From NCBI GenBank assembly GCA_903907925.1, contig CAIVQB010000055.1, positions 1 through 62,614 of the forward strand: a stretch of 62,614 bases of DNA, given 5' to 3'. The stretch comes from an uncultured Verrucomicrobiota bacterium. GTDB lineage: Bacteria > Verrucomicrobiota > Verrucomicrobiia > Limisphaerales > UBA9464. Positions 31,758-50,448 of the stretch are shown one piece after another (positions within the stretch are counted from its first letter, which is position 1; every line of letters begins with the position of its first letter). The translations under genes were made by a program, and so were the position numbers. The notes under the pieces are model-generated. The model was not told where the DNA came from. It saw only the letters and a list, made by a program, of their open reading frames with translations, and searched no databases.

Positions 31758-32576
31758 ATGGGGATCCAGGCCGGTCTGGGAAAACAGACAACCCGGGTGG
31801 CATTCACCCTGGTTGAACTGCTGCTTGTCGTTGCCCTTCTTCTCCTGTTGTTCGGCGCGGTCGTCTTCAACTTTGGTTCCCTGGAACGCGGTGCCCGGCT
31901 CGATGAAGGCGCCGGTCAGATCGAAACCCTGTTCCGCTTCGCACGGGCTCAGGCGTCCGCCACGGGACGGCAGGTTCGTATCACCTTCGGCGACGCAGCA
32001 TCCGGTGGAAACCTCGCGGGTTCCACCAACGTGGTCGCCGGGATCGCATCCGATGCGGGGATCTCGGTCACCTGGGAACCCGATCCCATGGGTGCCCCCG
32101 GCCAGTTCGAAGTGCTGAGGGAGGCCGCTCCGTACATCGAGCACCTGGCGACGCTCGTTCGCATCCACAGGATTCCCGCACCCGGCTTGATCACCTCGCG
32201 TAACGCCGGACACGGACCGGCCTTGGACGGGGGAGAATCGGCGCTCGTCTCGGGTAAGCCGGTGGCATCAACCGAATCCGACGCCGCCACCTCAACCGAT
32301 TCCACCGCCGCGGCCGCTCCGAATCTGCCAGTAACGTTTTATCCCGATGGGTCAAGCGATTCAGTGGAGGTGGTGTTGCAAGCGCGGGACGACGGAGACG
32401 TGCGGCGCATCGCCGTCGCACTGACCGGCCTGACCGGTGTCATCCGACGCCGTTCCGTCAACGAGGGTGAGGATGGAGGGCGCCCCGACGAGAACACCGA
32501 CACCGTCGCGGAATCGCAGGCCACCGCTGCAACCGCGGCCGCTCCGACGGACTCCGGTACCGCAAATCCGAAATGA
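31758..32576 (+). CDS. Minor pseudopilin GspH-like
   Basis: A 272-residue protein whose N-terminus (RVAFTLVELLLVVALLLLLFG) is a pseudopilin signal with Glu at +5 but Ala instead of Gly at -1. The position and the RFARAQASATGRQVRITFG block fit GspH. It is longer than typical GspH (about 170 residues) because of an Ala/Thr/Ser-rich, low-complexity insertion and tail after about residue 165. The stop overlaps the next gene's start by four bases. Confidence 0.8.
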   Translation: MGIQAGLGKQTTRVAFTLVELLLVVALLLLLFGAVVFNFGSLERGARLDEGAGQIETLFRFARAQASATGRQVRITFGDAASGGNLAGSTNVVAGIASDAGISVTWEPDPMGAPGQFEVLREAAPYIEHLATLVRIHRIPAPGLITSRNAGHGPALDGGESALVSGKPVASTESDAATSTDSTAAAAPNLPVTFYPDGSSDSVEVVLQARDDGDVRRIAVALTGLTGVIRRRSVNEGEDGGRPDENTDTVAESQATAATAAAPTDSGTANPK

Positions 32577-33010
32577 AACTCTTCCGGAACACATCACCGG
32601 ACGGCCAGCGCGGTGCCGCGCTTCTGGAGGTGTTGCTGGCGCTGGCGTTGTTCGTGGCGGCGGCGGCGGTGATGACCGTCGCATTGAACGCATCGATGGC
32701 CAGCCTGGATCGTCAACGCCTCGGAGCCCACGCCACCGATCTCGCCTCCAGCATCCTGGCCGAAGTCCAACTCGGAATCCGGCCGCTCGCCAGCGCCGCG
32801 CGCCTGCCGCTCGAACCTCCGTTTCAGGACTGGACCCTCGAACTCGCAGTCACGCCCACCGAATCCGGCGCGGGTGAACCCACCGGACTCGCCCGGGTCG
32901 AGGTGATCGTGCGGCACCAGTTTGAACCTGTCGTTCAACGCCTCGCGCAGGTGGTGAAACTGAGCCGCAGCATCGTCACCAATGCTCCTCCAGCCACTCC
33001 GGAGATCTGA
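32573..33010 (+). CDS. Minor pseudopilin GspI-like
   Basis: A 145-residue pseudopilin. The leader ends in QRG, followed by AALLEVLLALALF, so cleavage G/A with Glu at +5 is retained. The DLASSILAEVQLG segment and the following beta-strand region (WTLELAVTP) match GspI, a tip subunit of the pseudopilus. It starts inside the stop of the GspH-like gene (ATGA) and is separated from the GspJ-like gene by three bases, so all are co-translated. Confidence 0.85.
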   Translation: MKLFRNTSPDGQRGAALLEVLLALALFVAAAAVMTVALNASMASLDRQRLGAHATDLASSILAEVQLGIRPLASAARLPLEPPFQDWTLELAVTPTESGAGEPTGLARVEVIVRHQFEPVVQRLAQVVKLSRSIVTNAPPATPEI

Positions 33011-33013
33011 AGG

Positions 33014-33799
33014 ATGTGTCCCCAGCCATCACTTCAACGCTTCGAAAAACCGCAACGGACGGCGCTGCGGAGTACATCGGCGTTCACGCTGATCGAAGTG
33101 ATTCTGGCGATTTCCATCGCCACCGCCCTGCTCATCGCCGCGCTCATCTTCTACCGCCAGGCGGCCACCTTGCGGGGCCTGATTCTTTCGGAATCCGACC
33201 GACTGGCCACGATGCGGCTGATCCTTGATCGCCTCGCCAACGATCTCCGTTCGGCCCAGGTGCAGTCCGGTCGTGACGACGGATTCACCGGCACCAGCGA
33301 CACTCTGACTTTCACCCGCAGCACCCTCACCACGTCTCTGCCCGGTACGACGGGTGACGGATCAGGACTGTTGCGGATCACCTATTCCGCCGCCCGTTCC
33401 CAGGACGGGACCAATCGGATGATGACCGGACTCAATCGCCACGAGGAATCGCCGGGTGCCCCGCACGCCGCGGTGACGTCCGCGACGGGATTCGTCGTGG
33501 GCGATGCCAACCCCTTCACAGGAGTGACCGAGGTGACAAATCGTCCCGGCGAACTCCTGACCGACCTCGTCCGGTTCATGCGCCTGCGCTATTGGGATGG
33601 CGCGGCGTGGGTCGAAGGTTGGACGAATGCGGCACCGCCTCCCGGAGTCGAAATTGTTCTCTCCACCGAGCCTCCGGCCGAGGAGGGCACTCCCGACCCG
33701 TCCGCGCCGGAGCAGTTCCGGCGGGTGGTGTTCCTGCCGACCGGGATGGCCCGCCGCAAGCCAGAGCTCGATGGACTCAATGCACTGCTGTCACCCTGA
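33014..33799 (+). CDS. Minor pseudopilin GspJ-like
   Basis: A 261-residue pseudopilin. TSAFTLIEVILAISIATALLI is the prepilin segment, again with Ala at -1 and Glu at +5. The RLILDRLANDLRSAQ helix after the membrane segment and the late FRRVVFLPTG strand are typical of GspJ. It is somewhat longer than usual, with an acidic Pro-rich loop (PPAEEGTPDPSAPEQ). Expected to form the pseudopilus tip with the GspI- and GspK-like proteins. Confidence 0.85.
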   Translation: MCPQPSLQRFEKPQRTALRSTSAFTLIEVILAISIATALLIAALIFYRQAATLRGLILSESDRLATMRLILDRLANDLRSAQVQSGRDDGFTGTSDTLTFTRSTLTTSLPGTTGDGSGLLRITYSAARSQDGTNRMMTGLNRHEESPGAPHAAVTSATGFVVGDANPFTGVTEVTNRPGELLTDLVRFMRLRYWDGAAWVEGWTNAAPPPGVEIVLSTEPPAEEGTPDPSAPEQFRRVVFLPTGMARRKPELDGLNALLSP

Positions 33800-33805: not shown

Positions 33806-35302
33806 ATGATACCGACACGACATCACGCCGGCTGCCCGCCCCGCCAGGGGTTCGCGCTGCTGGCGGTGCTCGTGTTCATCATGCTGTTGTCGATGCTGAC
33901 GGTCAGCCTGATGTTCCGGTCGCGGTCCGATGAAACCGCAGCGCATGCCGGAGCCGGTTCCGAACAAGCATGGGCGGCGGCCATGAGTGGCGTGCAGGAG
34001 GCATTGCGAGTCGCCACGGGTGCTACCGCGGGTTCCATCGACTGGCAGGACAATCCGACGCTGTTCCGGGATCGTCCGGTGTTCGAGGACGGTGCCGATC
34101 AATGGTATTTCACCGTGTATTCCCCGACCGGAAGCGAGGACACCGTCGAGATCCGCTACGGCATCGATGACGAATCGGCGCGGTTGAACCTGAACCATCC
34201 GGGAGCCGCCGATCTCGGCCGCATTCCGCGGATGACGCCGGCCATGGTCCAGGCCTTGAAACAATTCATCGGCGACTCCGCGACCGGAGCGTCACCCGCG
34301 CCCACGCCCGATGCCGGAGCCGGAGCGTCCGATTCGACCGGAGCCGACGGGAATCCCAGCCTGGCCTCAATTCAGGAGGCCACGGCCACCGCGCTCGGAG
34401 TCACGGTGAAACACGGACCCCTGACCTCGCTGGATGAACTGACCTTGGTGCCCGGGTTTTCGTGGAGCCTGGTGCACGGTGAAGACGCCAATCTGAACGG
34501 CCACCTGGATCCGAACGAGGACGACGGTGACGAACACTTTCCGCCCGACAACCACGACGGCCGTCTCGATCACGGCATCGCGCAATACTTCACCATCGAT
34601 TCCTACGAACTCGATCGCACCAACGACGGACGGCCTCGAACCCAGCTCAACGATTCCAAGGATCCGCTCCCCGCCGGCGAGTTTCCGGCGGCCTTCACCA
34701 ACTTCGTCGCCAGCCTGCGCGCCGCCCATCAGAAGCTGGCTCATCCCGCGGACCTCCTCGAAGGCAGCATCCGGGTCAACGACGGCAAGGGAAATGAAAC
34801 GGACGTGGCGTCCGGCATCACTCGCACTGAACTGCCGCTGATCCTCGACCTCTTCACCACCGACACCAACGCGCGGCACGACGGCCTGATCAATCTCAAC
34901 ACCGCCAGCGCAACCGTTTTGGCCACCCTGCCCGGAATCGATGCTGCGCTCGCCGAAACAATCACCTCCACGCGGACCAGTATCAGTCCGGGCCGTCGGG
35001 CGAGCATCGCCTGGCTCTTCCAAGAAGGGTTGGTCGATGCGCCCCGGTTCAAACAACTGGCGCCTCACCTGACCACCCGGGCGCGCCAATTCCGATTTCA
35101 AGTGCTCGGCTACGGGCTGCCCTCCGGTCGTTTTCGAGTGCTCCAGGCGGTCATCGATATCGGAGGTACGGAACCCCAGGTGACCTACCTTCGCGACATC
35201 ACCCGTCTGGGACTTCCGTTCAAGGCCGGCCCGGATACGACGGAGAAAAGCACCAAGGAATCCGTCCAGGTTTCCCAGCCTTCGGGGGTGCGCCATGGGT
35301 AA
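33806..35302 (+). CDS. Type II secretion GspK-like minor pseudopilin
   Basis: A 498-residue protein at the position of GspK. The N-terminus RQGFALLAVLVFIMLLSML has the G/F cleavage site and, as in GspK generally, no Glu at +5. The large extracytoplasmic part includes IDDESARLNLNHPG, close to the GspK consensus, and a helix-hairpin-helix-like stretch LINLNTASATVLATLPGI. It is longer than most GspK proteins because of a Pro/Ala/Gly-rich insert (around residue 155-175) and an Asp-rich loop (NEDDGDEHFPPDNHDG) that could bind Ca2+. It overlaps the next gene by eight bases. Confidence 0.88.
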   Translation: MIPTRHHAGCPPRQGFALLAVLVFIMLLSMLTVSLMFRSRSDETAAHAGAGSEQAWAAAMSGVQEALRVATGATAGSIDWQDNPTLFRDRPVFEDGADQWYFTVYSPTGSEDTVEIRYGIDDESARLNLNHPGAADLGRIPRMTPAMVQALKQFIGDSATGASPAPTPDAGAGASDSTGADGNPSLASIQEATATALGVTVKHGPLTSLDELTLVPGFSWSLVHGEDANLNGHLDPNEDDGDEHFPPDNHDGRLDHGIAQYFTIDSYELDRTNDGRPRTQLNDSKDPLPAGEFPAAFTNFVASLRAAHQKLAHPADLLEGSIRVNDGKGNETDVASGITRTELPLILDLFTTDTNARHDGLINLNTASATVLATLPGIDAALAETITSTRTSISPGRRASIAWLFQEGLVDAPRFKQLAPHLTTRARQFRFQVLGYGLPSGRFRVLQAVIDIGGTEPQVTYLRDITRLGLPFKAGPDTTEKSTKESVQVSQPSGVRHG

Positions 35303-36983
35303 TCGCCTCCGGCACCTTTCCGTTTGGTTCGGGCGGTTCCGTCGTCTCCGCCGCGATCGGAAGCAGCGTCGACCAACGCTGGTCACCGCAATCGACCTCG
35401 ACGGCACGACGCTGCGGATCGTTCAGGCGGGTCCGCGGGCCCGCGTGATCCGTCTCACCGCCGTCCCACTGGACCTGCCGGCCGATGCTGATCGCAATGA
35501 TCCGCTCGCGGTGGGAATGGCCGTCAGCCGCGCATTGGCGAAGCTCGATCTCAAGCCCGGCTCGGTCGTGATGGGCATCCCCCGGGCCAAGGTGGTGCTC
35601 CGGACCCTCACGCTCCCGGTCATCGAAAAACTCACCGAGCTGGCGTCGCTCGTTCATTTCCAGGTGGGCAAGGATCTCCCGTTCCGCATGGACGAGGCGG
35701 TCATCGACTTCAAAGTCCGCCGCCAGGTCTTCGCCGCACCGGAGCGCACCGTTCCCGCCGGGCAGCCCGATCCGACCGCCGATGCCATCGCCGTTGCACC
35801 GCGGCTCGAAGTGCTGGTCGCCACGGTCAAGCGCGACGTGGTCGAGTTTCATCAAAGAATGGCGGAGGCCGCCGGTTTGAAACTCGCCGCCCTCGGGCTG
35901 TTGCCCTATGCCAACGCGCGATGCGTCCAGGCCTGCCGTGTGGCCGATGGTGAAGCCGCCTTTGCGTTGGTCTCCCTGCGACCCGACGAAGTGGCGATTG
36001 ATATCATCGCGCAGCAGGTGCTGTTGTTCAGCCGCGGTACGGTGCTTCGCCCCGCGGCCGAATTGCCGGGCGGCAACGGAACCGGACCCTCCCCATCGCC
36101 GAACGATCCGCTGGTCCGTGCCGCGGTGATCGAGGTGGTCCGCAGTCTTCACGGTTACGGCGGCATGGAACCACAGCCGGTGGTGGACAAGGTGGTGGTC
36201 ACCGGCGCGACCGGCTTTGAGGCGGAAGTGGTGGCGATGCTCAGCACCCGCCTTGAAACTCCCTGCACCCTGCTGGATCTGGCCGGTGGATTGCGCCTGC
36301 CGACTGGCTCAGCCGAACACGCGGCAGGATCCATCGGAGCCATGGGTCTAGCCTTCGGATGCTGTGATCCGCAGGGACTGCCCTTTGATTTTCTCAACCC
36401 GAAACGACCGGCCGTCCAGCGCGACCTGCGCCGGATCCAGCTTCTGTCAGCCGCCGCCGCGATTGCCGTGGTGTTGATGCTGGTCTTTGCCGTCCGCTCC
36501 TTCCTGATCAGCCGGCGCGAGGCGGTGCTGGCCACCGTCACCACAGAACTCAGCGATGCCGAGAAGAAGCGACCGGTCTATCGTCGTCTGATTTCGCAGA
36601 CCGGCGTGGTGGAGGATTGGATCAAGGGCGACCGCGACTGGCTGGAGCATTACGCCTACCTCACCTCGATTCTTCCGCCCAGCGACGAGGTTTATTTGTC
36701 AAAACTCGCCGTGAGCGGCCAGGGCGGGATCCAGCTTTCCGTACAGGCGCGCAGCGGTGAAACTTTGGCCCGGTTGGAAAAACAACTGCGCGCGGCCGGA
36801 TATGACGTGAAGCCGCTGGCGATCACGCCCGGCGCGGATCGTTTTGGGTACGAGTTCCGTTCCAACGTGGAACTGGTGGTGTCACCGAAGCTGCGGATCG
36901 ATCTGCAGAAGGTGAAGCCCCCGGCCCGGCCGCTCGATGACATGTCGCTCGACGCCACCGCCTACCGGAGGGGTGGCGGATGA
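35295..36983 (+). CDS. PilM-PilN fusion serving as GspL
   Basis: A 562-residue inner-membrane assembly protein. Residues about 28-350 are an actin-like PilM/GspL cytoplasmic domain (VTAIDLDGTTLRIVQ; KVVVTGATGFEAEVVAML). A single membrane span follows (AAAAIAVVLMLVFAV), then a periplasmic coiled and ferredoxin-like PilN-type domain (HYAYLTSILPPSDEVYLSKL). In type IV pili these are two proteins; GspL joins them. The cytoplasmic domain should hold GspE at the membrane. Its stop overlaps the next start by four bases. Confidence 0.85.
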   Translation: MGNRLRHLSVWFGRFRRLRRDRKQRRPTLVTAIDLDGTTLRIVQAGPRARVIRLTAVPLDLPADADRNDPLAVGMAVSRALAKLDLKPGSVVMGIPRAKVVLRTLTLPVIEKLTELASLVHFQVGKDLPFRMDEAVIDFKVRRQVFAAPERTVPAGQPDPTADAIAVAPRLEVLVATVKRDVVEFHQRMAEAAGLKLAALGLLPYANARCVQACRVADGEAAFALVSLRPDEVAIDIIAQQVLLFSRGTVLRPAAELPGGNGTGPSPSPNDPLVRAAVIEVVRSLHGYGGMEPQPVVDKVVVTGATGFEAEVVAMLSTRLETPCTLLDLAGGLRLPTGSAEHAAGSIGAMGLAFGCCDPQGLPFDFLNPKRPAVQRDLRRIQLLSAAAAIAVVLMLVFAVRSFLISRREAVLATVTTELSDAEKKRPVYRRLISQTGVVEDWIKGDRDWLEHYAYLTSILPPSDEVYLSKLAVSGQGGIQLSVQARSGETLARLEKQLRAAGYDVKPLAITPGADRFGYEFRSNVELVVSPKLRIDLQKVKPPARPLDDMSLDATAYRRGGG

Positions 36984-37978
36984 ATCGCCGTGAAGCCATT
37001 CTGGCGGCCTCGGTGGGAGGCGTGCTGGCACTCTTCGCCGGGTTGTATGCGTTGAACGTCGTGATTTTCCAGCCCGTTCGGGAGCTCGACAAGCAGATCG
37101 CCGGCGCGCGGGAAAAGATCGCCAAGATCCAGACTGAACGCCGAACGTATTTTTCCGCCGAGGACCGACTCAAGACGGTCACCGGACGGACCTTTGCCGA
37201 CACTGTTGACCAGGCCAGCGCGCGCTCGGGCGAGATGTTGACCCAGCAGATCCTCGCCGCCGGTCTGGCGGAAACGGCGTTCAACCGGACGCCGTTCGGA
37301 CCACGAACATTGCGGGGCGCGAACGAGATCGGCTGGACCGTCCAGGGCACCGGTTCGCTGTCGAATGTGGTCAACCTGGTCTTTCTGCTCAATGAATCGC
37401 CGTGGCTGCACCGCACGGAAGGACTCTCGGTGGGGAGCGGCGAAGTGCCCGGGATCGTCCGGGTGAACTTCCGATACCTCACGCTGGTCATCGATCCCGC
37501 ACCGGACGTGGTGCGCACCAATCTGGTGGCCAAACTCGGACTGGATTCACCCCGGCGCCATCTTCTGAATGGAATCGTCTCGCGCGACATCCTGCGTCCC
37601 TACATTCGCCGTCCGCCACCCACGGTTCCCGGCCAGACACCGGCATCCGCCTCAAAACGCAACCTTCCGCCCGGCCCTGAGAACTTCCGTGTCGTGTCGC
37701 TCTCCGAATGGCAGGGCCGTCCGGAAATCCACGTGAGGGATCTTTCCGCCCAAAAAACCATGCTGTTCAAACCCGGAGACGAACTCGCGGGCGGAATCAT
37801 CGTGATGGTCGACTACCGTCCGATGCCCAAACCCGGGAACTCACTGCTCCAGTCCTTCAGCCGCCTGATCCTCAAGATCGGCGATGAATTCTGGGCGATC
37901 GAGCGCGGCCGAACTCTCGCCGACAAACGCAAACTCTCGACCGATGAGCTCCCTCCAACGCTCACCCGTTCCCGTTGA
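36980..37978 (+). CDS. PilO/GspM-like inner-membrane protein
   Basis: A 332-residue protein with one N-terminal membrane span (ILAASVGGVLALFAGLYAL) and a coiled stretch (LDKQIAGAREKIAKIQTERR), followed by a ferredoxin-like periplasmic domain of PilO/GspM type. A Pro-rich linker (about residue 210-230) and a small C-terminal beta domain are extra to usual GspM. The last part could play the role of the missing GspC, which normally links the inner-membrane platform to the secretin; that is inference. It ends 37 bases before the secretin gene. Confidence 0.75.
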   Translation: MNRREAILAASVGGVLALFAGLYALNVVIFQPVRELDKQIAGAREKIAKIQTERRTYFSAEDRLKTVTGRTFADTVDQASARSGEMLTQQILAAGLAETAFNRTPFGPRTLRGANEIGWTVQGTGSLSNVVNLVFLLNESPWLHRTEGLSVGSGEVPGIVRVNFRYLTLVIDPAPDVVRTNLVAKLGLDSPRRHLLNGIVSRDILRPYIRRPPPTVPGQTPASASKRNLPPGPENFRVVSLSEWQGRPEIHVRDLSAQKTMLFKPGDELAGGIIVMVDYRPMPKPGNSLLQSFSRLILKIGDEFWAIERGRTLADKRKLSTDELPPTLTRSR

Positions 37979-38015: not shown

Positions 38016-41000
38016 ATGAAATCACTCTCACAGTTCCTCCTGGGCGTCTCCCTCATCACCACCTGCCTCGCCATCCGGGCCCAGGACACCAACAAGCCGG
38101 CCCCGGTTCCAGTGGCCGCTCCCGTGACCGCGGCACCGACCGCGACGGAGAAGGAGAAGGTTGATGTCGTGGTCAAGGGAACCGCACGAAAGGCTACGAC
38201 ACCCGAACGGAACATCCGCTTCCAGTTCGATGGAATCCCGTATTCCGACGTCGTCGATCGTTTCTCCCAGATGGCCGGGAAACCGCTCCTTTCAGATACC
38301 AACGTCATCGGAACCCTCACCTACGACGATCCCAACGCCTACACCTACACCGAGGCCCTCGACACGCTGAACCTCATCCTGGCGATGCGGGGGGTCATGC
38401 TTCTGGAGGACGGCAACAACCTTCGACTGGTTCCGTTCAAGCAGCTTCCCTCGATGCCGCTCCGCATCATGCGCGGCACCGAATCGACCGGCGATATCCG
38501 ACCCGGCGAGGTTGTCACCGTTGTGCTCGACGGGGCCAACGTCGACACCAAAGAGGTGATGGATTCGGTGCAGACGATGCTGTCGACCGCGGGCTCGATG
38601 GCACCGTTGGGCCGCGGCCGTGGCCTCGTGGTGACCGATCGCCTCGCCAACATCCAGCGGGTCCGCACCCTGCTCGCCACCATCGGAACCGAGCAGTCCG
38701 CCGACCGGCAGATGAAGACCTACACGCTGCTGCACGCCTCGGGTGCGATCGTGTCGGATCTGTTGAACCGAACCTTCGGCATCGCCACCGCGCCGAAGCG
38801 GACGACGTTCAATCCGAATTCCAAGGCGATGGAAGTGCTGCCGCCGGATCCCAACGACTACATCACCTCGGTCTACGACGAGGCGTCCCGGACGCTGCTG
38901 CTTTTCGGTCCTCAGGATCGGCTCGCCCTCGCCGAGGAATTGGTGAACAAGTTCGAACAGAAGGACGGCCCGGCCGGCGACGTCCGAATCTATTATCCCC
39001 AGACAATCAAAGCCGAGGAATTGGCCAACCTGATTCGCCAGGCCATCCCCGGCGTGGCCGCACCCAATGAGTCCGCAAGCGCCGCCGCCACCAAGGCCCG
39101 CGTCATCCCCGACATTGCGCAGAACCGCGTCATCGTGGCCGCGCCGGTCCCGGGGCAGCTCGACCAGATCGAGCAGTTGGTACTGCGGGTCGACAAGGGA
39201 GCGCTCGGTGCCACCGGCCCCACTCACATCGACAACACGCTCACCCCACTTCGGACCCAGACCGTTCAACTCACGAAAATCTTTCGGCCGCGCGCCATCG
39301 AAGCCACCAACGTGGCGACCATCGTCCGGCAGGCCCTCACCCGGCGGGAAAAATCGGGCCAGGTCACCACCACCGCCAGCATCTCGTTCGACGCCGGAAG
39401 CCAGAGTGTCGTGGTCACCGGCACGCCGGGCGATCTGCAAACCGCCACGGACATTGTCTCCCAATTGGAGACCGGCACCTCCCAGCCGACGCCGCTCCAG
39501 ACGCGGTTCATCGATGCCGGTTCACCCGAGGAGGCCAAGCGCCTGGAGCCTCTTGTGGAGCAGTTGTATCGCAATCAAACGGCCGACGGCGGTTTGGGCA
39601 CGGTGGCCCATGCCAAGATCATAGCCGACACCGAATCCGGCCGTCTGATCGTCACCGCCAGTCAGGATCACATCGAACGCATCGAAGCGCTGGTCCGGCA
39701 ACTGCGCGCTGATAAATCAACAGTGCAGGCCCGGCATCTCAAGGTCGTCGCGCTCAAGAATACCCGGACCGATGCGGTCTTTGCCAATATCCAGAGCCTG
39801 GTCGCCGAGCGCATGGCGGACCGGCGGTTCTCGACGGTTCCCAAGCCCTCGGTGGTTGCGGACCCCGCCAACAACCGTCTCCTGGTCACCGCAACCGATG
39901 AACAACTCAAGGAGATCGAGGATGTCGTCGCCGTCGTGGACATTCAGGCCACCCAGGTCGAACGACAACTGGCGGTCATTCCGCTTCAAGCCAAGTCCGC
40001 TGCCGAAATCATTCCTCTCGTCACCCAACTGAGCGGGCAGTTCAGCACCCCGGGCCTGCCGGCTCCAACCTTGATGGCCGATCCAACCGGGAAACAGATC
40101 ATTGTCCTGGCCGTGGCCAAGGATCAGGAACGAATCCGAACCCTGGTGAAGGAATTTGACGTGAGCCAGGCCACCGCCGCACCGCGCCAGTTCCGTGGGG
40201 TTGAACTCTTCCGCCGCACCGCCACCGAATTCGCCCCGCTCGTCCAGCAACTCTACACCGAACAACTGCGCGGCCAGCCGGAACCCGCCGGTGGACCGGC
40301 CACCTTGATCGCCGAGGCGAAGCAGAACCGCGTGATGGTCAGCGGCTCGGAAAAAGAAATCGCCCGCGTGGAGGGCATCATCCGTCAGCTCGATCCGACC
40401 ACGACATCCGCGGTGAAGGAAGAGACCCGGGTGATCCGGCTCAAAACGGCCTCGGCGGCCGAACTGGTCGGCCTGGTCGACAAGAGCCTCAACGCGCAGT
40501 CGCAGCAGGTGCGCGTCCTGGTCGATACCCGCAGCAACAGTCTTGTCGTCACCGGCACTCCCGCTGCCGTCGAATCTGCGTGGCAGATGATCCAGCAACT
40601 GGACACCCGCGGCGAAAATGGCCCGCGGGAACTCCGTTTGATCGAACTGCGTTCCGGCGACGCCGCCACTCTGGCTCCGATGGTCACCAGTCTGTTTGCG
40701 GAAATGGTCCGCGATCAACGAGGTGCCGACTACGTGACCGCCACGAAAATCGTTCCCGACTCCATCGTCAACCGCCTGGTGGTCACCGGAACCCACGACG
40801 AAATCGAACAGGTCGCCGGCATCGTCTCGCGTCTCGACAATTCGCCACAGCAGGCCCCCGGTGCGCGGGTCTTCAAACTGAGCCGCGCCGAGGCGGCGAC
40901 AATGGCGCCGATTGTTTCCAATGCGATGGTCCGCTTCGACGCCCGCGGCCGGGCCGTCCAACGGGTCACGGTTGCCGCCGACGAGAAATCCAACTCACTG

Positions 41001-44000
41001 GTGGTCTCCGGTTCACGAACGGATTTGCAGGATGTCGAATCAGTCATCGAGAAACTCGATGGCGACACCGTGGCCAAGGAGCGGGTTCTCCGGATCTTTG
41101 ACGTGAAGGGTGACGCCGACGGACTCGCCGTCCTGGCCTTGAAGGTCTTTGCCGCACAAAACCCCGGACGCAGCATCGATTCGTTGCTGAGCATCACTCC
41201 GGAACCCTCCACCAAACGGCTCATCGTGCTGACCTCGCCGTCCCTGATGCCGCAGGTCGAGACGGTCATCAACACTCTCGACGCAAAGCCCGATCAGGGC
41301 CTTCGCGAACTGCATTCCGTGGAGTTGAAGAACGCCACCGCCAGCGAGTTATTGCCGCAGATCAACCAGATCTACGCCGAGCAATCCCGCGGCAAGACGC
41401 TCAAGCCGGCAACGCTTTACGGGGACGCCTCCGGAACGCGATTGCTGGTGCAGGGCACCGAGGACCAGGCCGCTGCCATCCGACAAATCGTCACCACCCT
41501 CGAAAGCCAGGCGCGGCCGGCACGCGAAACAAAGGTGTTCGAACTCGGCCGGCTCGCCGAGGCACAGCGGATCCTTCCCATCGCGCGGCAGTTGTATCAG
41601 GACCAACTCGGCAGCAACCCACAACTGGGTGCAGCCGACGCGCAAATCATCAGCGACGGTCGGACCGGCCGGTTGATCGTCAGCGCGCGGGCCGATCAAT
41701 TGAAAATCATCGAGGGTATTTTTGGCAGTCTGCAAACCAACGGTGATCCCACTCAGACCGCCCGCGAAACCCGGACGTTTGAGGTCGGTTCGGCTGCCGA
41801 CGTGCAACGCATTCAACCCCTCGTCCAGCAACTCTACCAAGCCCAATGGAAGGATCGTCAGGATACCGATCCGGCCGACGCCCAGATCGTGGCCGACGCG
41901 AAGACCGGCCGTCTGATCGTCACCGGAAAGCCGGAACACCTGAAACAGATCGAATTGATCCTCCAGCAAATCGGAGCCGGAAAAGCCCGGGCCGAGCATC
42001 GCGAAACCCGGATTCTCGATCTCACCACCGCCAGCGCCGTGGAACTCGCGACCACGGTCCGCACGCTGTACGCCGAAGAAGCCAAGGGACGGCTCGGCAC
42101 CCAGGTTCCCGACACGCTCATCACCCCGGACACCGGCGGCAACCGACTGATCCTCGTCGGCGACACCAACGAACTGTCCGCGGTTGAGGAGATCGTCCGC
42201 AAATTGGACAAGGTCAGCGCCCAAGGCTCGTCGGCCCGCGTCTTTAAGATCAAATCGGCCGAGCCCGACAAGGTGGCCGAGATTCTAACCGCATCGCTGA
42301 TTCGCTACGACGCCTACGGTCGCCCTCAGAAACGGGCCAATGTTTCCGTCGATGCGAAGACCCGAACGCTCATCGTCACCGCTGACCCGAAGGAACTTCA
42401 GGGTGTGGCGTTGATCATCGAACAGTTGGACCAATCGCTCGGAGCACAACCCGAGCGCCGGATGAAAACCCTGACGCTGCAACAGGGAAAAGTGACGACG
42501 CTCTCGCCCAAGGTCCGGCAGCTCTACAACGACCGCATCAAGGGACAGCCGGATCTCGCCACCTCCGACCCGCTCATCCTCGAGGATTCGGAGAGCAATC
42601 AGCTCATCCTGGCCGGCACCGATGGACAATTGAAGTTGGTCGAAGAGATTGTCACCGAACTTCAATCGACGCAGGTCGCCCACGCCGCCCGCGAAACACG
42701 CCTGATCCACCTCGGTACGCCCGAGGAAATGAGCCGCCTGCAGCCGCTCGTTCAGCAACTCTACCAAGACCGCTGGAAGGGTCGTGACAACGGCGACCTG
42801 GCCGACGCCCAAATCATCGCCGATCCCAAGAACGCCCGCTTCATCGTCACCGGCCGATCCAATCATCTCGCTGAAATCGAATCCATCGTCGCCCAGCTTC
42901 GCGGCGCAAACACTGCACCTGAAGGCCGCGACACGCGGATCTTCGATCTCACCACCGCCACGGCGGCCGATCTTTCAGGAACCGTCCGAACCCTTTACCA
43001 GGAACAGGCCAAGACCCGACCGGGCGCCCCGGCGGCGGACACCCTGATTCTTCCCGACAGCAACGCGAACCGGATCATCGTCACCGCCGCCACCAATGAA
43101 CTGGCGATCATCGAGGAGATCATCCGAAAGCTCGACAAGGTCGGTGCCCAGAGCGCGTCGACCCGGGTGTTCAAACTGAAGTCCGCCGATCCGGACAAGG
43201 TCGTTGAGATCCTCGGCACGGCGCTCGTTCGTTATGACGCCTACGGCCGGCCTCAGAAGCGGGTCAGCGTGGTCACCGATTCCAAAACCCGCACGATCAT
43301 CGCCACCGGTGATCCGAAGGAACTTCAATCGGCATCCGTCATCATTGAACAACTCGACGCCACCCTGGGTTCACAGCCGGGCCGTACGATGCGGGTGTTG
43401 GCGGTCAAGGATCGCAACACCGCCGAGGTCGCCACCAAGGTGCGCCTCGTCTATCAGGATCAGGCCCGCAACAACGCCGAACTCGGCACCAGCGAACCGT
43501 TGATTCTCGATGACGTCACCAGCAACCAGTTGATCGTCGCGGGCACCGAGCGGCAGTTGGAGGCGTTGGCGGAGATTGTTCTGATTCTCCAGAAGACCGG
43601 TGACACTGGCGGGCGACAAGTCCGGGTGTTCCCCCTGGAACGCACCACCGCAACTTCCCTGGTGACGATGCTGTCGCAGGTTTACGCGCGGCAGATCGCG
43701 AGCACAGAACCCTCGGAGCGCCTCGTGGTCAGCACCGGCGGCAACGAGCGGTCGCTGGTCGTGGAGGCACCAGCCACTTTGATCGCCCGGGTGGAGGAAC
43801 TCGTGAAGGGTCTCGATCAACCCGGACCGGAAGGCCAGAACGTCATTCAAACCGTGAAGCTCACCAAGGGACGGGCTGAGGACCTGGCGGACGCGGTCAA
43901 TCGCACCATCGCCACCCGAGCCGTCCCGGCCAATGCCCGGCGCATCAGCGTCACCGCGGTGGCGGGTTCAAACAGTCTGCTGATCAACGGTCCGACCAAC

Positions 44001-47000
44001 GCCGTGCAGGACGTGATGAAGATCGTCCACGAACTCGATCAGGACGGCGGCGGATCCAGTGAAATCGAGGTCCGCATCTACAAACTGGAAAACGGCACGG
44101 CAAAGGAAGTTTCCGCCATCGTCGAACAATTGTTGGAATCGGTGACGCGAAACCTGCGCGGGACGACCGTCAGCGGCGAAGGTCGACGGGTGCCGACGGC
44201 CAGCGTGACGGTCGATGAACGTTCCAAGAGCCTCATCATTTCCGCCACCGCGGCTCATTTCAAAGTGATCGAGAAAATCCTCCCCACACTCGACAAGGCT
44301 CCGGAACGTTCGGATCGCGATGTTCAATTCGTCTGGCTGCACAAGGCCAAGGCCTATGAGGTGGTCAGCAAACTGGAAGCCTTGTTCGAGGACCGTCCCC
44401 GCGGTGACCGCCCGGTCATCGAAGCCGATCCGACCAACAATTCGATCACCATCATCGCCCGACGTGGCGATCTCGCCCAGATCCAAGATCTCGTCGGACG
44501 CCTGGACCAGACCGGCAAGGATTCAGCGATCCAGGTTCGCCTGCGCCCCCTCGACCGCATGGCCGCCGAACAGATGGCCGAGATGCTCCGCAACATTTAT
44601 CCGCAGATGTCGGGGACCGCGGTGCGGGTTACTGAAAAGGTCACGGCACCGGCACCGGAATCCGGTTCCACCAATACCCCCGCCGTGGCGGCTTCGACCA
44701 ACGGCGCTCCGGTCGAGGTGGTGGTCGCCGTCGACAAGGCCGCCAACGCGGTGATCCTGTCCGGCCCCGCCCAGGAACTCGATGCGATCGATCGGTTGAT
44801 CACCGAGCTTTCGATGAATTTCTACGGTCACGAATCGGAATTCCGCCTGTTCGCCATCAAGGACGCCGACCCGGTCGTGGTGGCCCGCACGCTCACCGAG
44901 CTCCTCCGGCAGGACGTGCCCGCCGTGGCCCAGCAACCCGGTCAGCCGGCTCAGCCCCAGCCCACCGCTTCCCGTCCCCGCATCACCGTTGTCGCCGAGC
45001 CGCGGACCCGCAGCGTGATCGTTCGCGCGCGCCCGACGGATTTCGCGTTGATGGAATCACTCATCAAGCAATTGGACAATGCCGGCCAGAACACCCAGCT
45101 CGGGTTCCGCATCGTTCTGCTGAAGAATGCCTCCCCCGAAAAGACGCTGACGCTCGTCCAGCAGATGGTCACCCAGCTCAACACCACCCGTCCCGGCGAT
45201 CCGGTCAGCGTCTCGCTTGACGTCCGCGACCATGGCCTGCTGGTGATCGCGCGCGGGTCAGCCGGCGACCAGGTGGAACAGATGATCCGGTCCCTGGATA
45301 AATCGTCGCCGCACGTCGATGCGGAGATGCGCATCATCCCGCTGAAACGCGCCAATGCGACCCAGTTGGCCACTGTTCTCCAGGGAATGTTGCGGCCGGG
45401 TCCGCAGGGCGAATCCACCCTCGAAGCCCGCGAACTCCAGGACCAAATCCGCCGGCTAAAGATTCACAATGATGACGACGAGGAAATCGTCCTCGATCTC
45501 GCCCAGCCCATCCGCATCGCCGCCGACCCCGCAGCGGGCGGAGGCAACCGACTGATCCTCACCTCGACACCCAACAACCTGCGCGGGCTGGCCGCCATCG
45601 TCGAATTGATGGACTCGGTTCCCGTCCTGGATGGTGTCGGGGTTCGCCTGGTGCCGCTGGAACACGCCGATGCCACCACAGTATCGCAAACCCTGACGAC
45701 GATCTTCACTCAGGGCCGTCAATTGGCGGCCGGACCGGCCGGACCGAATGGCGAACCCGCCGACCAGGGCCGGGCGCTGGTGCATCCGCTCAACGTCGCC
45801 GTGGACAGCCGCAGCAACACGCTGATCATCGCCGGACAGCCAGAAAGCATCAGCCTGGCGCTAAAAATCATTCGCGACATGGACCGCGAACTGAAGGGCT
45901 TCGTCACCGATGTCCGCTTGTTCCGCCTCAAACACGCCTCCGCCACCCGGATCATGCCCCTGCTCCAATCGGTGTTCGCCGAGGGAGCGGCAGTCGCCGG
46001 GACCGAAGGGCTTTCCACCCAGATCACCCGGCTCCGTACGCTCAAGGACGCTGGACGTTCGTTGAAGAATGAAACGCCGAAGGTTCGACCCGCCTTGACC
46101 ATTCAGGCCGACGATCAATCGAACATCCTCGTGGTGGCCGCCCGCAGCGACAATCTGCCGCTGATCGCCGAGGTCATCGAACAACTCGACATCCCGGCTG
46201 CTTCCGGACTCGAAACGGTCCGCATCTACCCGCTCGAACATGCCGATCCCTCGGCCGTTCAAAAGGTCCTCACCGATCTCTACACCGGTCCCCGCGCCAC
46301 TGCGCTCCGGACCGAGGACCGGCCGGTGATCACCGTCGACGCCCGCACCGGCTCGCTGATCGTGGCGGGCAACAGCAAGGCCTTCGGGATCATCGAGGCG
46401 CTGTTGAAGCAACTGGATCAAAAGCTGCCGTTCGATCTTCGCGACATCGCCCTGATTCCGCTCGAACATGCCGATGCGAATGTCGTCGCCACGACCCTTC
46501 AAAAATTAATGGATGCGCGTGTAACCCAGCGGGCATCGCTCAACCAAGGGCAGGCCGACGCCCTCAAGGTCATCATCATGGCCGATCAACGCAGCAACGC
46601 CCTGTTGGTCGGCGGACCGCGCGAAGGATTCGAACTCGTTCAAACGTTGGCACGGCAACTCGACCAGGCCGCCCCGGCGTTGAGCGGACGTGTCCGGCTC
46701 ATCCCGTTGAAATACGCGGACGCCCGGGTGATCGCCTCGACGTTGGGCGGATTGTTCGACCAGCGCATCGCGGCGATTCGCACCGCCGACGTGCAACGGA
46801 ACAAGCCCATCATCCTCGCCGACACCCGGAGCAATTCCCTGCTCGTGGCAGCCAGCCAGGAAGACAACCGGACCCTTGACGACCTGTTGTTACGCTTGGA
46901 CGCCAAGCAGGACAACCCGTCCCTGCCACTCACCGTCCTTCCGCTGAAGCACAACGATTCGGCACGGGTCACCACGCTTTTGGAGAGCATCTTCGCCGCA

Positions 47001-49901
47001 CGGCTGCGAGCCCAGGCGCTGCCTGGTCAGACGCCGCTTCCGGCGGAACAGATCAAGATCGAACCGGACAGCCTGAACAACGCGCTCGTGGTTTCCGCCA
47101 GCAAGGAGAACCTCGAATTGATCCGCGGCCTTCTTGAAAAACTCGATCAGGAACCGGTCATCGCCGGCGGGGTGCTGGAGACGTTCACCCTAGAATTCGC
47201 CGACGCCCAACGCGTGGCGGCTATTCTTAAGTCCCTCGTCGACCAGGGCCTCTACCGGCCGGGTCTACTTCCGGGCGCAACCGGCAAGGCGACCGCAGGT
47301 GGTCGGGACATCCTCTCGATCAGCGTGGATCCGCGGAGCAACACGCTCATCGTCAGCGCCAGCCCGGAGAACCTCGTCATTGTCCGCGAGGTGGTGAAAC
47401 GCATCGACAACAAGGACGTGGCGGCCACCGCCGATGTGAAGCTGTACGCGCTCAAGAATGCGCGCGCCTCCACGCTGGCGACGACACTTCAGCAATTCTT
47501 CCAGTCGAAACACGCGGCCGACACGCTCGCGGTCAACGCCAACCAGCGCACAGTTCCAGCCACGGTGCTCGCCGATGACCGGGTGAACTCGATCCTGGTG
47601 ACGGGCGGTAAGGAAGCCTTCGAACTCGTCGAACGCCTGCTGCCCCAACTCGACGGCGACAGTGTCTTCGCCCGCCTCAATTTCCGCGTCTTCCCGCTCA
47701 AGAAGGCGACTGCCTTGAAACTGCAGACCACGCTTCAGCCGATCTTCGCCAACCGACCCCCGCGGGTGAAGGGCGAGCCCGTCGATCCGATCACCATTGT
47801 CGCCGATCAGTGGGTCAACGCACTGCTCATCGGAGCGACGGTCGAAGACATGAGCACCGTGGCGTCGCTGGTGGAACGGCTCGACGAGGAACCCACTGAG
47901 ACCGGGATCGCGATTCACGTGTTCCCTCTCGCCAAGGCGGATGCCCGCAAAATCGCGACCACCGTGCAGGGATTGTTCCGCGAAAACCTGCCCAACCAGA
48001 TCCTCCCCATCACGGTGACCGCCGATGAGCGGATTAATGCGATCGTGGTTTCGTGTGGCGAAACCGACGCCAAACGCATCGGAGAACTGGTGCAAAAGCT
48101 GGACACCGATCAGGTGGCCAAGGTGAACGAAATCCGCGTCTTCCCGTTGCAATACGCGCGGGCTGACGCCCTTTCGACCATCCTTAACACCGCGCTCAAC
48201 ACCAAGCCGGCGCAACTCAACGAGCAGAGCCCCAACGCCCAATCAGTGCTTCAATTCATCACCCGTTCCACCGGCGGCAAGGACCTCGTGACCGCCGCGT
48301 TGAAGGAAGGCGTGTTGATCACGCCGGATCCGCGGATGAATTCGCTCATCGTCTCCGGACCGGTGGACTACATGGGATTGCTCGAACAGGTGATCAGCCG
48401 GCTGGACGCCAGCTCACCGCAGGAGGCGAAAATCAAAGTCTTCGCCATGCGCAACGCCGACGCCCGCCAGATGGCGAATCTGATCACCCAGTTGTTCAAG
48501 ATGACACCGGCGGCCGGAACCACCGCCGGACAACGCTCGGTCCAATACACGCTGGTCCGTCCGGCCTCGGCGGACAACGGTCCCGGAAAGGACGAACCGC
48601 TCGCCAGCGCCACCCTCGGAACGGCGGAACAAGTGGCGCTCACCGTCACCATCGATCCGCGAACCAACAGCCTGCTGGTCGGCGGAACCGACCATTACGT
48701 CCAACTGGTCTCGGAAATCATCGACACCCTCGATTCCAGCCAGGCCCACGAACGGAACTCGGAAGTGATCCGCCTGCGGAATTCCCAGGCCGCCGACGTC
48801 GCCAGTGCGATCCGCAATTTCCTCGATCAGGAACGTTTGAAACTGATCCAGGCGCTCGGAGCGGACGCCGCCTCGTCGGCCGAACGGATGCTGGACCAGG
48901 AAGTGGCCGTGGTTGCCGAACCCTTGAGCAACACCCTGCTGCTCTCGGCCAATCAGCGCTATTTCGATCAGGTCCGAAAAATCATCGACCAGATCGACCT
49001 GGCGCAGCCCCAAGTGCTGATCCAGGTGCTCCTGGCCGAGGTGACCCTGGACAGCACGTCCGATCTCGGCGTGGAGTGGAAGTACAACGGAACGAAAAAC
49101 GGGGTCAACTACAACACCGGCACCGACCTCGGCGTTGCCAATCAACTTCAGACGCTCGGCGGCTATTCCGCCGCGGTTACCGGAGGTGATTTCAGCTTCA
49201 TGCTGCGGGCCTTGAAGGATCAGGGACGTCTGGAAGTCCTCAGTCGCCCGCAAATCGTCACCGCGGACAACAAACCCGCCAGCATCAACATCGGCCAGCG
49301 GGTTCCGCTAATTGATCAAAGCCGCCTGGACGCTCAGAACAATCTGACGACGTCCTTCCGGTACGAGGATGTGGGCGTCAACCTGACCGTGACGCCCAAG
49401 ATCAGTTCGGACGGTTTTGTGAAGATGGAGATTGGGACGACCAACAGCGCGATCAGCAGTTCCAGCGTGGATATCAACAAGTCCTCCAGCGTCCCCATCA
49501 TCAACCAACGCAAGGCCAACACCACCGTCAGCGCCCAAAGCGGCCAGACGATCATCATCGGCGGCCTGATTTCAACGTCGGACGATCGGCGGGTGAAGAA
49601 GGTCCCCTGGCTGGGCGACATCCCCTACCTCGGCGCGATGTTCCGCTCGACCACTGTCAGCCGCGAGCGAAAGGAACTTCTGATTCTGCTCACGCCCCAG
49701 GTGCTGGAAAATGGCCAAAATCCGACCGCACTGCAGGACCCCGACACCGTGACCCGTCAGCAGATCGACGGCACCGGATTCAAGAGCCTCCTCAAGGGCG
49801 ATGAAATGCAACGGCGCCTGATTGAACCCTTGTATCCGACCAACCCGCCGCCACACCGGGCCACGCCGCCGCCGGTTCGCAACTTGAAGACTGAATTGTG
49901 A
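38016..49901 (+). CDS. Giant secretin (GspD-like) with about 43 N1-type domains
   Basis: A single uninterrupted 3,961-residue outer-membrane secretin gene; ordinary GspD is about 650-750 residues. The ATG at 38016 starts a signal peptide (cleavage after IRA, residue 22), and the frame upstream to 37884 overlaps gspM. Residues about 66-140 form an N0 domain (IRFQFDGIPYSDVVDRF...AGKPLL). From about 149 to 3665 run about 43 units of 67-105 residues, each ending in the Secretin_N pattern (for example ADTRSNSLLVAAS then helix then LLLRLDA). The secretin barrel domain spans about 3666-3900 (VLLAEVTLDSTSDLGVEW; VLSRPQIVTADNKPA; VGVNLTVTPKI; GQTIIIGGLIS; VPWLGDIPYLGAMFR). It is followed by a Pro-rich tail. 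It is the last Gsp-type gene of the operon and should form the outer-membrane channel. Confidence 0.95.
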   Translation: MKSLSQFLLGVSLITTCLAIRAQDTNKPAPVPVAAPVTAAPTATEKEKVDVVVKGTARKATTPERNIRFQFDGIPYSDVVDRFSQMAGKPLLSDTNVIGTLTYDDPNAYTYTEALDTLNLILAMRGVMLLEDGNNLRLVPFKQLPSMPLRIMRGTESTGDIRPGEVVTVVLDGANVDTKEVMDSVQTMLSTAGSMAPLGRGRGLVVTDRLANIQRVRTLLATIGTEQSADRQMKTYTLLHASGAIVSDLLNRTFGIATAPKRTTFNPNSKAMEVLPPDPNDYITSVYDEASRTLLLFGPQDRLALAEELVNKFEQKDGPAGDVRIYYPQTIKAEELANLIRQAIPGVAAPNESASAAATKARVIPDIAQNRVIVAAPVPGQLDQIEQLVLRVDKGALGATGPTHIDNTLTPLRTQTVQLTKIFRPRAIEATNVATIVRQALTRREKSGQVTTTASISFDAGSQSVVVTGTPGDLQTATDIVSQLETGTSQPTPLQTRFIDAGSPEEAKRLEPLVEQLYRNQTADGGLGTVAHAKIIADTESGRLIVTASQDHIERIEALVRQLRADKSTVQARHLKVVALKNTRTDAVFANIQSLVAERMADRRFSTVPKPSVVADPANNRLLVTATDEQLKEIEDVVAVVDIQATQVERQLAVIPLQAKSAAEIIPLVTQLSGQFSTPGLPAPTLMADPTGKQIIVLAVAKDQERIRTLVKEFDVSQATAAPRQFRGVELFRRTATEFAPLVQQLYTEQLRGQPEPAGGPATLIAEAKQNRVMVSGSEKEIARVEGIIRQLDPTTTSAVKEETRVIRLKTASAAELVGLVDKSLNAQSQQVRVLVDTRSNSLVVTGTPAAVESAWQMIQQLDTRGENGPRELRLIELRSGDAATLAPMVTSLFAEMVRDQRGADYVTATKIVPDSIVNRLVVTGTHDEIEQVAGIVSRLDNSPQQAPGARVFKLSRAEAATMAPIVSNAMVRFDARGRAVQRVTVAADEKSNSLVVSGSRTDLQDVESVIEKLDGDTVAKERVLRIFDVKGDADGLAVLALKVFAAQNPGRSIDSLLSITPEPSTKRLIVLTSPSLMPQVETVINTLDAKPDQGLRELHSVELKNATASELLPQINQIYAEQSRGKTLKPATLYGDASGTRLLVQGTEDQAAAIRQIVTTLESQARPARETKVFELGRLAEAQRILPIARQLYQDQLGSNPQLGAADAQIISDGRTGRLIVSARADQLKIIEGIFGSLQTNGDPTQTARETRTFEVGSAADVQRIQPLVQQLYQAQWKDRQDTDPADAQIVADAKTGRLIVTGKPEHLKQIELILQQIGAGKARAEHRETRILDLTTASAVELATTVRTLYAEEAKGRLGTQVPDTLITPDTGGNRLILVGDTNELSAVEEIVRKLDKVSAQGSSARVFKIKSAEPDKVAEILTASLIRYDAYGRPQKRANVSVDAKTRTLIVTADPKELQGVALIIEQLDQSLGAQPERRMKTLTLQQGKVTTLSPKVRQLYNDRIKGQPDLATSDPLILEDSESNQLILAGTDGQLKLVEEIVTELQSTQVAHAARETRLIHLGTPEEMSRLQPLVQQLYQDRWKGRDNGDLADAQIIADPKNARFIVTGRSNHLAEIESIVAQLRGANTAPEGRDTRIFDLTTATAADLSGTVRTLYQEQAKTRPGAPAADTLILPDSNANRIIVTAATNELAIIEEIIRKLDKVGAQSASTRVFKLKSADPDKVVEILGTALVRYDAYGRPQKRVSVVTDSKTRTIIATGDPKELQSASVIIEQLDATLGSQPGRTMRVLAVKDRNTAEVATKVRLVYQDQARNNAELGTSEPLILDDVTSNQLIVAGTERQLEALAEIVLILQKTGDTGGRQVRVFPLERTTATSLVTMLSQVYARQIASTEPSERLVVSTGGNERSLVVEAPATLIARVEELVKGLDQPGPEGQNVIQTVKLTKGRAEDLADAVNRTIATRAVPANARRISVTAVAGSNSLLINGPTNAVQDVMKIVHELDQDGGGSSEIEVRIYKLENGTAKEVSAIVEQLLESVTRNLRGTTVSGEGRRVPTASVTVDERSKSLIISATAAHFKVIEKILPTLDKAPERSDRDVQFVWLHKAKAYEVVSKLEALFEDRPRGDRPVIEADPTNNSITIIARRGDLAQIQDLVGRLDQTGKDSAIQVRLRPLDRMAAEQMAEMLRNIYPQMSGTAVRVTEKVTAPAPESGSTNTPAVAASTNGAPVEVVVAVDKAANAVILSGPAQELDAIDRLITELSMNFYGHESEFRLFAIKDADPVVVARTLTELLRQDVPAVAQQPGQPAQPQPTASRPRITVVAEPRTRSVIVRARPTDFALMESLIKQLDNAGQNTQLGFRIVLLKNASPEKTLTLVQQMVTQLNTTRPGDPVSVSLDVRDHGLLVIARGSAGDQVEQMIRSLDKSSPHVDAEMRIIPLKRANATQLATVLQGMLRPGPQGESTLEARELQDQIRRLKIHNDDDEEIVLDLAQPIRIAADPAAGGGNRLILTSTPNNLRGLAAIVELMDSVPVLDGVGVRLVPLEHADATTVSQTLTTIFTQGRQLAAGPAGPNGEPADQGRALVHPLNVAVDSRSNTLIIAGQPESISLALKIIRDMDRELKGFVTDVRLFRLKHASATRIMPLLQSVFAEGAAVAGTEGLSTQITRLRTLKDAGRSLKNETPKVRPALTIQADDQSNILVVAARSDNLPLIAEVIEQLDIPAASGLETVRIYPLEHADPSAVQKVLTDLYTGPRATALRTEDRPVITVDARTGSLIVAGNSKAFGIIEALLKQLDQKLPFDLRDIALIPLEHADANVVATTLQKLMDARVTQRASLNQGQADALKVIIMADQRSNALLVGGPREGFELVQTLARQLDQAAPALSGRVRLIPLKYADARVIASTLGGLFDQRIAAIRTADVQRNKPIILADTRSNSLLVAASQEDNRTLDDLLLRLDAKQDNPSLPLTVLPLKHNDSARVTTLLESIFAARLRAQALPGQTPLPAEQIKIEPDSLNNALVVSASKENLELIRGLLEKLDQEPVIAGGVLETFTLEFADAQRVAAILKSLVDQGLYRPGLLPGATGKATAGGRDILSISVDPRSNTLIVSASPENLVIVREVVKRIDNKDVAATADVKLYALKNARASTLATTLQQFFQSKHAADTLAVNANQRTVPATVLADDRVNSILVTGGKEAFELVERLLPQLDGDSVFARLNFRVFPLKKATALKLQTTLQPIFANRPPRVKGEPVDPITIVADQWVNALLIGATVEDMSTVASLVERLDEEPTETGIAIHVFPLAKADARKIATTVQGLFRENLPNQILPITVTADERINAIVVSCGETDAKRIGELVQKLDTDQVAKVNEIRVFPLQYARADALSTILNTALNTKPAQLNEQSPNAQSVLQFITRSTGGKDLVTAALKEGVLITPDPRMNSLIVSGPVDYMGLLEQVISRLDASSPQEAKIKVFAMRNADARQMANLITQLFKMTPAAGTTAGQRSVQYTLVRPASADNGPGKDEPLASATLGTAEQVALTVTIDPRTNSLLVGGTDHYVQLVSEIIDTLDSSQAHERNSEVIRLRNSQAADVASAIRNFLDQERLKLIQALGADAASSAERMLDQEVAVVAEPLSNTLLLSANQRYFDQVRKIIDQIDLAQPQVLIQVLLAEVTLDSTSDLGVEWKYNGTKNGVNYNTGTDLGVANQLQTLGGYSAAVTGGDFSFMLRALKDQGRLEVLSRPQIVTADNKPASINIGQRVPLIDQSRLDAQNNLTTSFRYEDVGVNLTVTPKISSDGFVKMEIGTTNSAISSSSVDINKSSSVPIINQRKANTTVSAQSGQTIIIGGLISTSDDRRVKKVPWLGDIPYLGAMFRSTTVSRERKELLILLTPQVLENGQNPTALQDPDTVTRQQIDGTGFKSLLKGDEMQRRLIEPLYPTNPPPHRATPPPVRNLKTEL
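41769..42695 (+). repeat. Four-unit block, first copy of a 927-base internal duplication
   Basis: Four successive units (starting TRTFEVG, TRILDLTT, ARVFKIKSAEPDKV and RRMKTLTL; 79, 76, 74 and 80 residues) repeat in the same order and lengths directly downstream. The landmark RYDAYGRPQKR occurs at 42303 and again at 43230, exactly 927 bases later; the block starts also differ by 927 bases. Confidence 0.9.
42696..43613 (+). repeat. Four-unit block, second copy of the internal duplication
   Basis: Units begin TRLIHLG, TRIFDLTT, TRVFKLKSADPDKV and RTMRVLAV. Counted by eye, the second units are identical at 46 of 76 positions and the third at 50 of 74. The first three units have the same length as in the upstream block; the last is about three residues shorter. 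Older, weaker copies of the same order are visible in the units just before 41769. Confidence 0.9.
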
Positions 49902-50431: not shown

Positions 50432-50448
50432 ATCCGGGATGCCGCCTC

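Follow-up and report, generated by a model that had tools for sequence, protein, structure and literature searches.

A predicted GspD-family secretin with 43 N-type units encoded in a type II secretion operon of an uncultured Verrucomicrobiota bacterium

Known members of the GspD group of secretins carry an N0 domain followed by N1-N3, as stated in parts of PMC10550240 and PMC6882859. In GspD and PilQ, each N domain pairs with its copies into a ring and the rings stack, according to parts of PMC5745081, PMC10550240, and PMC6882859. Thermus thermophilus PilQ, in the portion of PMC5745081 that describes it, has six stacked rings (N0-N5), is 350 Å long, and spans most of a wide periplasm. For Verrucomicrobia of three subdivisions, including Ellin514, part of PMC2647929 describes a ribosome-free zone under the outer envelope. 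In this study, we analysed a stretch of 62,614 nucleotides (the window) from an uncultured Verrucomicrobiota bacterium of the order Limisphaerales (assembly GCA_903907925.1, contig CAIVQB010000055.1), and found that its last gsp gene, a single open frame at 38016-49901 on the + strand with 3,961 codons plus a stop, encodes a giant secretin of 428 kDa. Judged by its sequence, this protein is a GspD-family secretin of variant architecture, GspD being the secretin of the type II secretion system (T2SS). Textbook secretins are nanomachines built from a few rings, and the known relatives of the giant have about three to six ring-type domains, whereas the family described here has 20 to about 55 N domains.

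The initial annotation had claimed a continuous frame of 3,961 codons with about 43 N1-type units between a signal peptide plus N0 domain and a normal barrel, and this is confirmed. Pfam searches, proposed as a check on whether the N domains might be few, gave 42 stretches of Secretin_N (PF03958) ahead of the barrel, 1141 bits in total, and one Secretin match (PF00263) at the C-terminus (residues 3732-3897, E 4e-51), where the barrel is ordinary. A hidden Markov model (HMM) built from the giant's own units places 42 units at residues 231-3661, and a divergent N-type unit at residues ~145-223, which we call unit 0, was found by hhalign (probability 91, one-pair E 1e-6) and brings the number to 43. 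The signal peptide is apparent by eye. The N0 part of the claim is less firm, with a weak match to PF21305 at residues 77-135 (E 0.029, under the cut-off); PF21305 is also listed for some relatives. When the last 322 residues were compared with nine NCBI families, TIGR02517 was best at 243.5 bits, the cut-off of 351 being for the whole protein. KH-domain matches, which appear both in Pfam and in fold lists, are taken as reflecting a similar small fold, with no functional meaning. No DNA-level tandem array was detected in the gene by Tandem Repeats Finder, which indicates that it is not a recent or collapsed repeat. The features of the gene are as follows.

38016..49901, + strand: giant gspD secretin, 3,961 aa, 428 kDa (Pfam, own unit HMM, hhalign)
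38016..38084, + strand: signal peptide, residues 1-23 (sequence, by eye)
38244..38420, + strand: N0 domain, residues 77-135 (PF21305, E 0.029, weak)
38448..38684, + strand: divergent N-type unit 0, residues ~145-223 (hhalign probability 91)
38706..39194, + strand: units 1-2, N0 side (unit HMM, comparison with distant or short relatives)
39195..39266, + strand: longer variable linker after unit 2, possible hinge (unit HMM, linker lengths in relatives)
39267..43817, + strand: units 3-22, including the main variable zone, units 12-23 (unit HMM, relatives)
41763..42665, + strand: first copy of a 4-unit module, units 14-17 (unit-by-unit comparison)
42690..43592, + strand: second copy of the 4-unit module, units 18-21 (identity of paired units 43-69%)
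43839..48998, + strand: units 23-42, adjoining the barrel (unit HMM, relatives, linker lengths)
49209..49706, + strand: secretin barrel domain, residues 3732-3897 (PF00263, GspD matches in PDB)

Six modelled units adopt a beta-alpha-beta-beta-alpha fold in predicted structures of low predicted template modelling score (pTM), and a model of the last units plus barrel (predicted local distance difference test score 70, pTM 0.38) has GspD as its first structural match. The corresponding profiles find GspD chains in PDB, a mid-array profile aligns along adjoining N domains of GspD, and the best sequence and model matches of the giant in PDB are GspD-type T2SS secretins. Single units match, but superpositions across several units give a large root-mean-square deviation, so that, together with the low pTM, the angles between units are not fixed by the models.

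The gene is the last of a gspE-F-G-H-I-J-K-L-M-D operon, all on the same strand, in which the matches of E, F, and G are clear and those of H, I, J, K, L, and M are weak or under curated cut-offs. The open reading frame (ORF) listed for gspG overlaps gspF, so the true gspG start is probably further in.

28128..29900, + strand: gspE ATPase with T2SSE and MshEN domains (PF00437 E 7e-133, PF05157)
29908..31110, + strand: gspF platform protein (PF00482, two stretches)
31023..31727, + strand: gspG major pseudopilin, ORF as listed (T2SSG; TIGR01710 101.4 bits on 31239-31727, above the cut-off of 88.85)
31758..32576, + strand: gspH-like minor pseudopilin (GspH, weak)
32573..33010, + strand: gspI-like minor pseudopilin (gspI/XpsI, weak)
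33014..33799, + strand: gspJ-like minor pseudopilin (TIGR01711, weak)
33806..35302, + strand: gspK-like minor pseudopilin with a helix-hairpin-helix motif (NF037980 E 1e-14, below cut-off; HHH_3)
35295..36983, + strand: gspL-like inner-membrane platform protein, PilM part (PilM; co-occurrence with the giant)
36980..37978, + strand: gspM-like inner-membrane protein (weak NF040576 match, E 0.004; found beside the giant in related genomes too)

That the giant belongs to this operon follows from the co-occurrence of its cognate gspL, which was found in 32/32 giant-bearing and 0/38 giant-lacking genomes in a sample of 70 genomes of the order, hand-picked mostly by completeness (two of the 32 bearers fall under the quality cut). 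Furthermore, gspM is the adjoining upstream gsp match in all 16 loci that show any upstream gsp gene. Among 20 upstream stretches from related genomes, 12 have the full E-to-D order, three run from G to D without E and F, one, limited by a contig end, covers J to D, two are too short, and two show D alone; in the two genomes with giant gspD alone, gspL lies on a different contig. These results support the giant as the own secretin of its gsp operon, and thus the earlier suggestion that it is the probable working secretin; no second, normal-size gspD was found in the operon, the four other secretin genes of the genome all lying elsewhere. The gene is indeed the last of its operon, as had been stated, but the operon is not fully conventional, since GspC, which in canonical proteobacterial T2SS links N0 to the inner membrane, was not found: PF11356 gave no match at E<=1 in this 96% complete genome, although a very distant GspC could escape, and the same profile matched in 3 of 14 control genomes. 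Directly after the giant, at 49898-50859 of the window, two small ORFs (177 and 143 aa) have no Pfam or NCBIfam match.

The giant is not confined to this genome. Within the order it occurs in 57 of 195 genomes, its own included, at E<=8.5e-78, the next match being at 1.7e-58. Its genus is represented by four further genomes, and two of these are without it. A protein search yielded 280 relatives at E<=0.001, the window's own included, and 59 of the 120 that were listed, again counting the window's own, have 42 found units. In a scan of 85 loci, the last part of the protein (residues 3214-3940) was matched in 76, among them the window itself; a probe of six units from mid-array was matched in 42, each time along more than 93% of its length. 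Labels of relatives include Verrucomicrobia, Limisphaerales, Pedosphaera, Planctomycetota, and Phycisphaerae, so named, and the family spans metagenome-assembled genomes (MAGs) of Verrucomicrobiota and Planctomycetota; one listed relative carries an unchecked Methylomirabilota label. All 80 loci kept of 295 are titled as MAGs, with no named cultured strain among them. In a phylum sample of 288 genomes, no frame above 1,214 aa besides the window's own was present among the matches listed. Several public MAG records titled Akkermansia muciniphila (L031, L032, L039, L040, L047, L048, and others) carry the giant with 61-71% C-terminal identity; these titles look wrong.

The length of the gene is likewise a property of the family. 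Frames of the 57 giants in the order measure 2,418-5,155 aa in 44 cases, one with an internal stop, and less than 2,000 aa in 13, of which 10 stop at a contig end, two are cut by one frame change, and one by many. None of the 57 was found to be a normal-size copy. When 20 of the longer giants were fetched whole, 17 started normally and contained 24 to 56 units, and two ran off the contig; L125 (2,418 aa) begins inside a unit with no contig end there, and this copy is also cut. The giant cut by many frame changes lies on a contig of 1.08 Mb (L155, G469:C38), and may be either a decayed gene or a product of read errors. Among 347 proteins, 227 were taken as intact because their first found unit lies at residue 140-330 and their last is followed by 270-420 residues; their counts, which add units judged missing from long gaps, range from 20 to 56 (54 directly found in the largest) and peak at 42 (n=65), with 183 of the 227 at 38-46. 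Two of the 227 (16 and 17 units) are likely partial and were left out of this range and of the tree, which was built with FastTree from the last unit plus barrel (225 rows and four outgroup rows). The tree has two deep clades, of 78 and 147 rows, and arrays of 38-47 units are present in each. Arrays of 20-25 units also occur in both, at three separate positions provided that one node (support 53) is correct, and thus look like contractions. The tree implies at least 49 changes of unit-number class.

Despite this variation in number, the order of units is kept. Two relatives, with identities of 86% and 76%, correspond to the giant unit for unit (42/42), and 36-42 units are colinear in the other 12 of the 14 relatives compared, a set that covers 41-54 units. 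In 13 of the 14, every number change is confined to units 12-23 and units 23-42 are the same in number; the exception, P0084, has one extra unit before unit 6 and leaves unit 29 unmatched. Eleven distant or short relatives still have 16-24 colinear units, where shuffles expect 6-7 with a maximum of 11; in these, unit 1 is matched in 11/11 and unit 2 in 8/11, units 22-42 are mostly matched, and only 0 to 2 of units 3-21 are. Within the main zone, identity in a 46-unit protein reaches 0.47 at lag 4 compared with 0.26-0.27 at adjoining lags, and the middle of P0337 (33 units) is a 2-unit tandem whose identity at lag 2 is 0.76, suggestive of recent expansion. No period was seen in three of the 10 proteins tested, and the last 20 units were aperiodic in all 10. 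In the 41-54-unit relatives, the main zone grows by tandem copying of a 4-unit module.

The junctions between units are short and nearly constant. Across the 67 relatives with 42 found units, 2,638 of 2,747 linkers have 5-9 residues (median 7), one length prevails in more than 80% of the relatives at 34 of 41 junctions, and eight of the last 13 junctions have a single length in all 67. Linkers among units 23-42, next to the barrel, have medians of 6-7 aa. The clearest departures are the linker that follows unit 2, with a median of 20 aa and a range of 6-24, and the one that follows unit 10 (median 11, range 6-16), and at the seven linkers that are 70-160 aa long a unit was probably missed. Some units carry long inserts and have median lengths of 94-99 compared with ~70. 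Constraint extends along the array: between the giant and its relative L070, units 5-42 give nonsynonymous and synonymous divergences (dN and dS) of 0.093 and 1.24 and the overall dN/dS is 0.075. Taken singly, none of the 40 units for which dS is finite exceeds a dN/dS of 0.17, although these ratios are rough because dS is near saturation.

Taken together, we consider it probable that the giant is the working outer-membrane channel of its T2SS. Its N domains are predicted to form stacked rings, giving a channel some 110-200 nm long that would cross a wide periplasm. The initial annotation had left folding back, lateral interaction, and a very long channel side by side; short near-constant linkers (6-8 residues), kept order, and constraint make ring stacking likely, and at the level of sequence the linkers and the order favour a long stacked channel over folding back or lateral contacts. 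Each N domain would form a ring with its copies in other protomers, by analogy with GspD and PilQ, and the rings would stack in register. Contact with the inner-membrane platform (GspL/GspM) may be made by N0 and units 0-2, which a flexible linker sets apart from the remaining array; the barrel and the units next to it would make up the outer part, and the pseudopilus and substrates would move inside the tube. Thermus PilQ, at 350 Å for six rings plus barrel, sets a bound of 58 Å or less per ring. GspD has about 25 Å per ring. For 44 rings, a length of 110-200 nm is thus plausible by analogy, with an upper bound near 257 nm. The usual periplasm of 20-30 nm is too narrow for a straight channel of this length. 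The ribosome-free zone of Verrucomicrobia is today often read as a widened periplasm, and on that basis the variable zones are taken as spacers that would tune ring number to the distance between the membranes. The fuller proposal of a trans-envelope tube in which ~44 rings are stacked over 110-200 nm, with a mass of 6.4 MDa if it is 15-fold, and in which adjustable 4-ring and 2-ring stretches act as a ruler matching an expanded periplasm in the Planctomycetes-Verrucomicrobia-Chlamydiae (PVC) group, is more tentative, and we give it slightly less than an even chance. Two observations weigh against the simple picture of a single spacer zone, on which the stacked channel does not depend: in the distant relatives P0276, P0297, P0241, P0255, and P0261, the matches of units 27 and 28 (or 29) are separated by 5 to 10 additional units, and short relatives are without some of units 28-36. 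The place after unit 27 is a second site of unit-number growth.

Other readings of the same data deserve consideration. The lack of a GspC match, the longer variable linker after unit 2, the long inserts of some units (median unit length 94-99 compared with ~70), and a unit number that differs more than two-fold among intact relatives would all suit a working channel in which rings form only near the barrel, perhaps with an N0 cap, and the rest is a flexible or folded-back tether to the inner-membrane platform that replaces GspC. We regard this as rather unlikely, since linkers in the middle of the array are mostly no longer than those beside the barrel, albeit less constant, and the low dN/dS in all middle units with finite dS, most of which keep their place, exceeds what a loose tether would need. 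It is also conceivable that the units bind neighbouring secretins or envelope proteins as a scaffold or lattice that organises the periplasm or cell surface, with secretion secondary. Every unit has its own conserved sequence, compatible with different partners, and several have long inserts; nevertheless, the exact co-occurrence with a T2SS platform gene, the conserved operon, and the expansion of middle units as similar modules, which would be odd if partners were dedicated, make such a scaffold improbable.

The array might instead reflect neutral domain duplication, the gene being real and expressed but its length kept by a ratchet and not by need. Contraction to 20-25 units in some lineages and growth beyond 48 in others, the 49 or more class changes, and two places of number change instead of one are what a ratchet could leave behind, but low dN/dS in each unit with finite dS, the kept order, and the concentration of intact proteins at 38-46 units (65 of the 183 at exactly 42) leave this reading a slim chance. 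Misassembly of the giant locus, an objection foreseen in the initial annotation, was ruled out because relatives from other assemblies share the architecture. The MAG consists of 148 contigs, of which the window is one, and this would speak for an artefact; in its wider form, including fused genes or an inflated tandem repeat, the artefact explanation also has to face the missing DNA tandem repeats, the overall dN/dS of 0.075, and the fact that all 13 frames below 2,000 aa are explained by contig ends (10) or frame changes (3); we consider its chance negligible.

The other secretins of the genome provide a contrast. A second gsp operon (contig C78, L010) resembles that of the giant in having gspE, F, J, and K together with N0, N, and secretin parts, and differs in the ordinary number of N domains and in its split secretin (L010:12069-14580), of which one gene encodes N0 and N domains and the next the remainder of the last N domain plus the barrel. 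The barrel-bearing half has its own signal peptide, by eye, in this genome. The secretin is split likewise in all six other genomes checked (L137-L142), and in five of these the frames are in phase with one stop codon between. Another secretin has 802 aa and two N domains. One of 929 aa with weak TPR matches, near a PilM gene on contig C4 (L008:7102-9891), is likely the type IV pilus secretin of the genome. A 1,216-aa fusion of a BlaR1-type M56 peptidase with a secretin domain was also observed on contig C60 (L009:9138-12788).

No description of such a many-unit secretin was found in the open-licence PubMed Central literature, in line with the earlier remark that no such system was known, but the gene is not unique, being one of a family across two phyla. 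The component parts are known, but that literature describes neither a secretin of this scale nor its growth by modules or its occurrence in two phyla. The family raises the questions of how long a secretin channel can be, how the pseudopilus and substrates would travel along it, and what the true width of the periplasm is in Verrucomicrobiota and Planctomycetota. If ring number is a ruler, envelope width would be predictable from sequence and the debate on PVC compartments testable by tomography. A tube of ~44 rings, if true, would be the longest known secretin channel and would record, at the molecular level, how envelope width varies across the two phyla. The modular growth of the array also offers a series of natural variants in which to study how length evolves.

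In summary, like GspD, PulD, XcpQ, and EpsD, the giant has ring-building N domains, a barrel, a signal peptide, and an operon with gspE-M. Canonical GspD has N0 plus three N domains, whereas the giant has 43 N-type units, so it is better regarded as a variant GspD than as a typical member. PilQ is encoded with pilM-N-O-P, and the neighbours of the giant are instead gspE-M. Thermus thermophilus PilQ shares with it an above-usual number of N rings, but the giant has about seven times as many and lies in a gsp operon.
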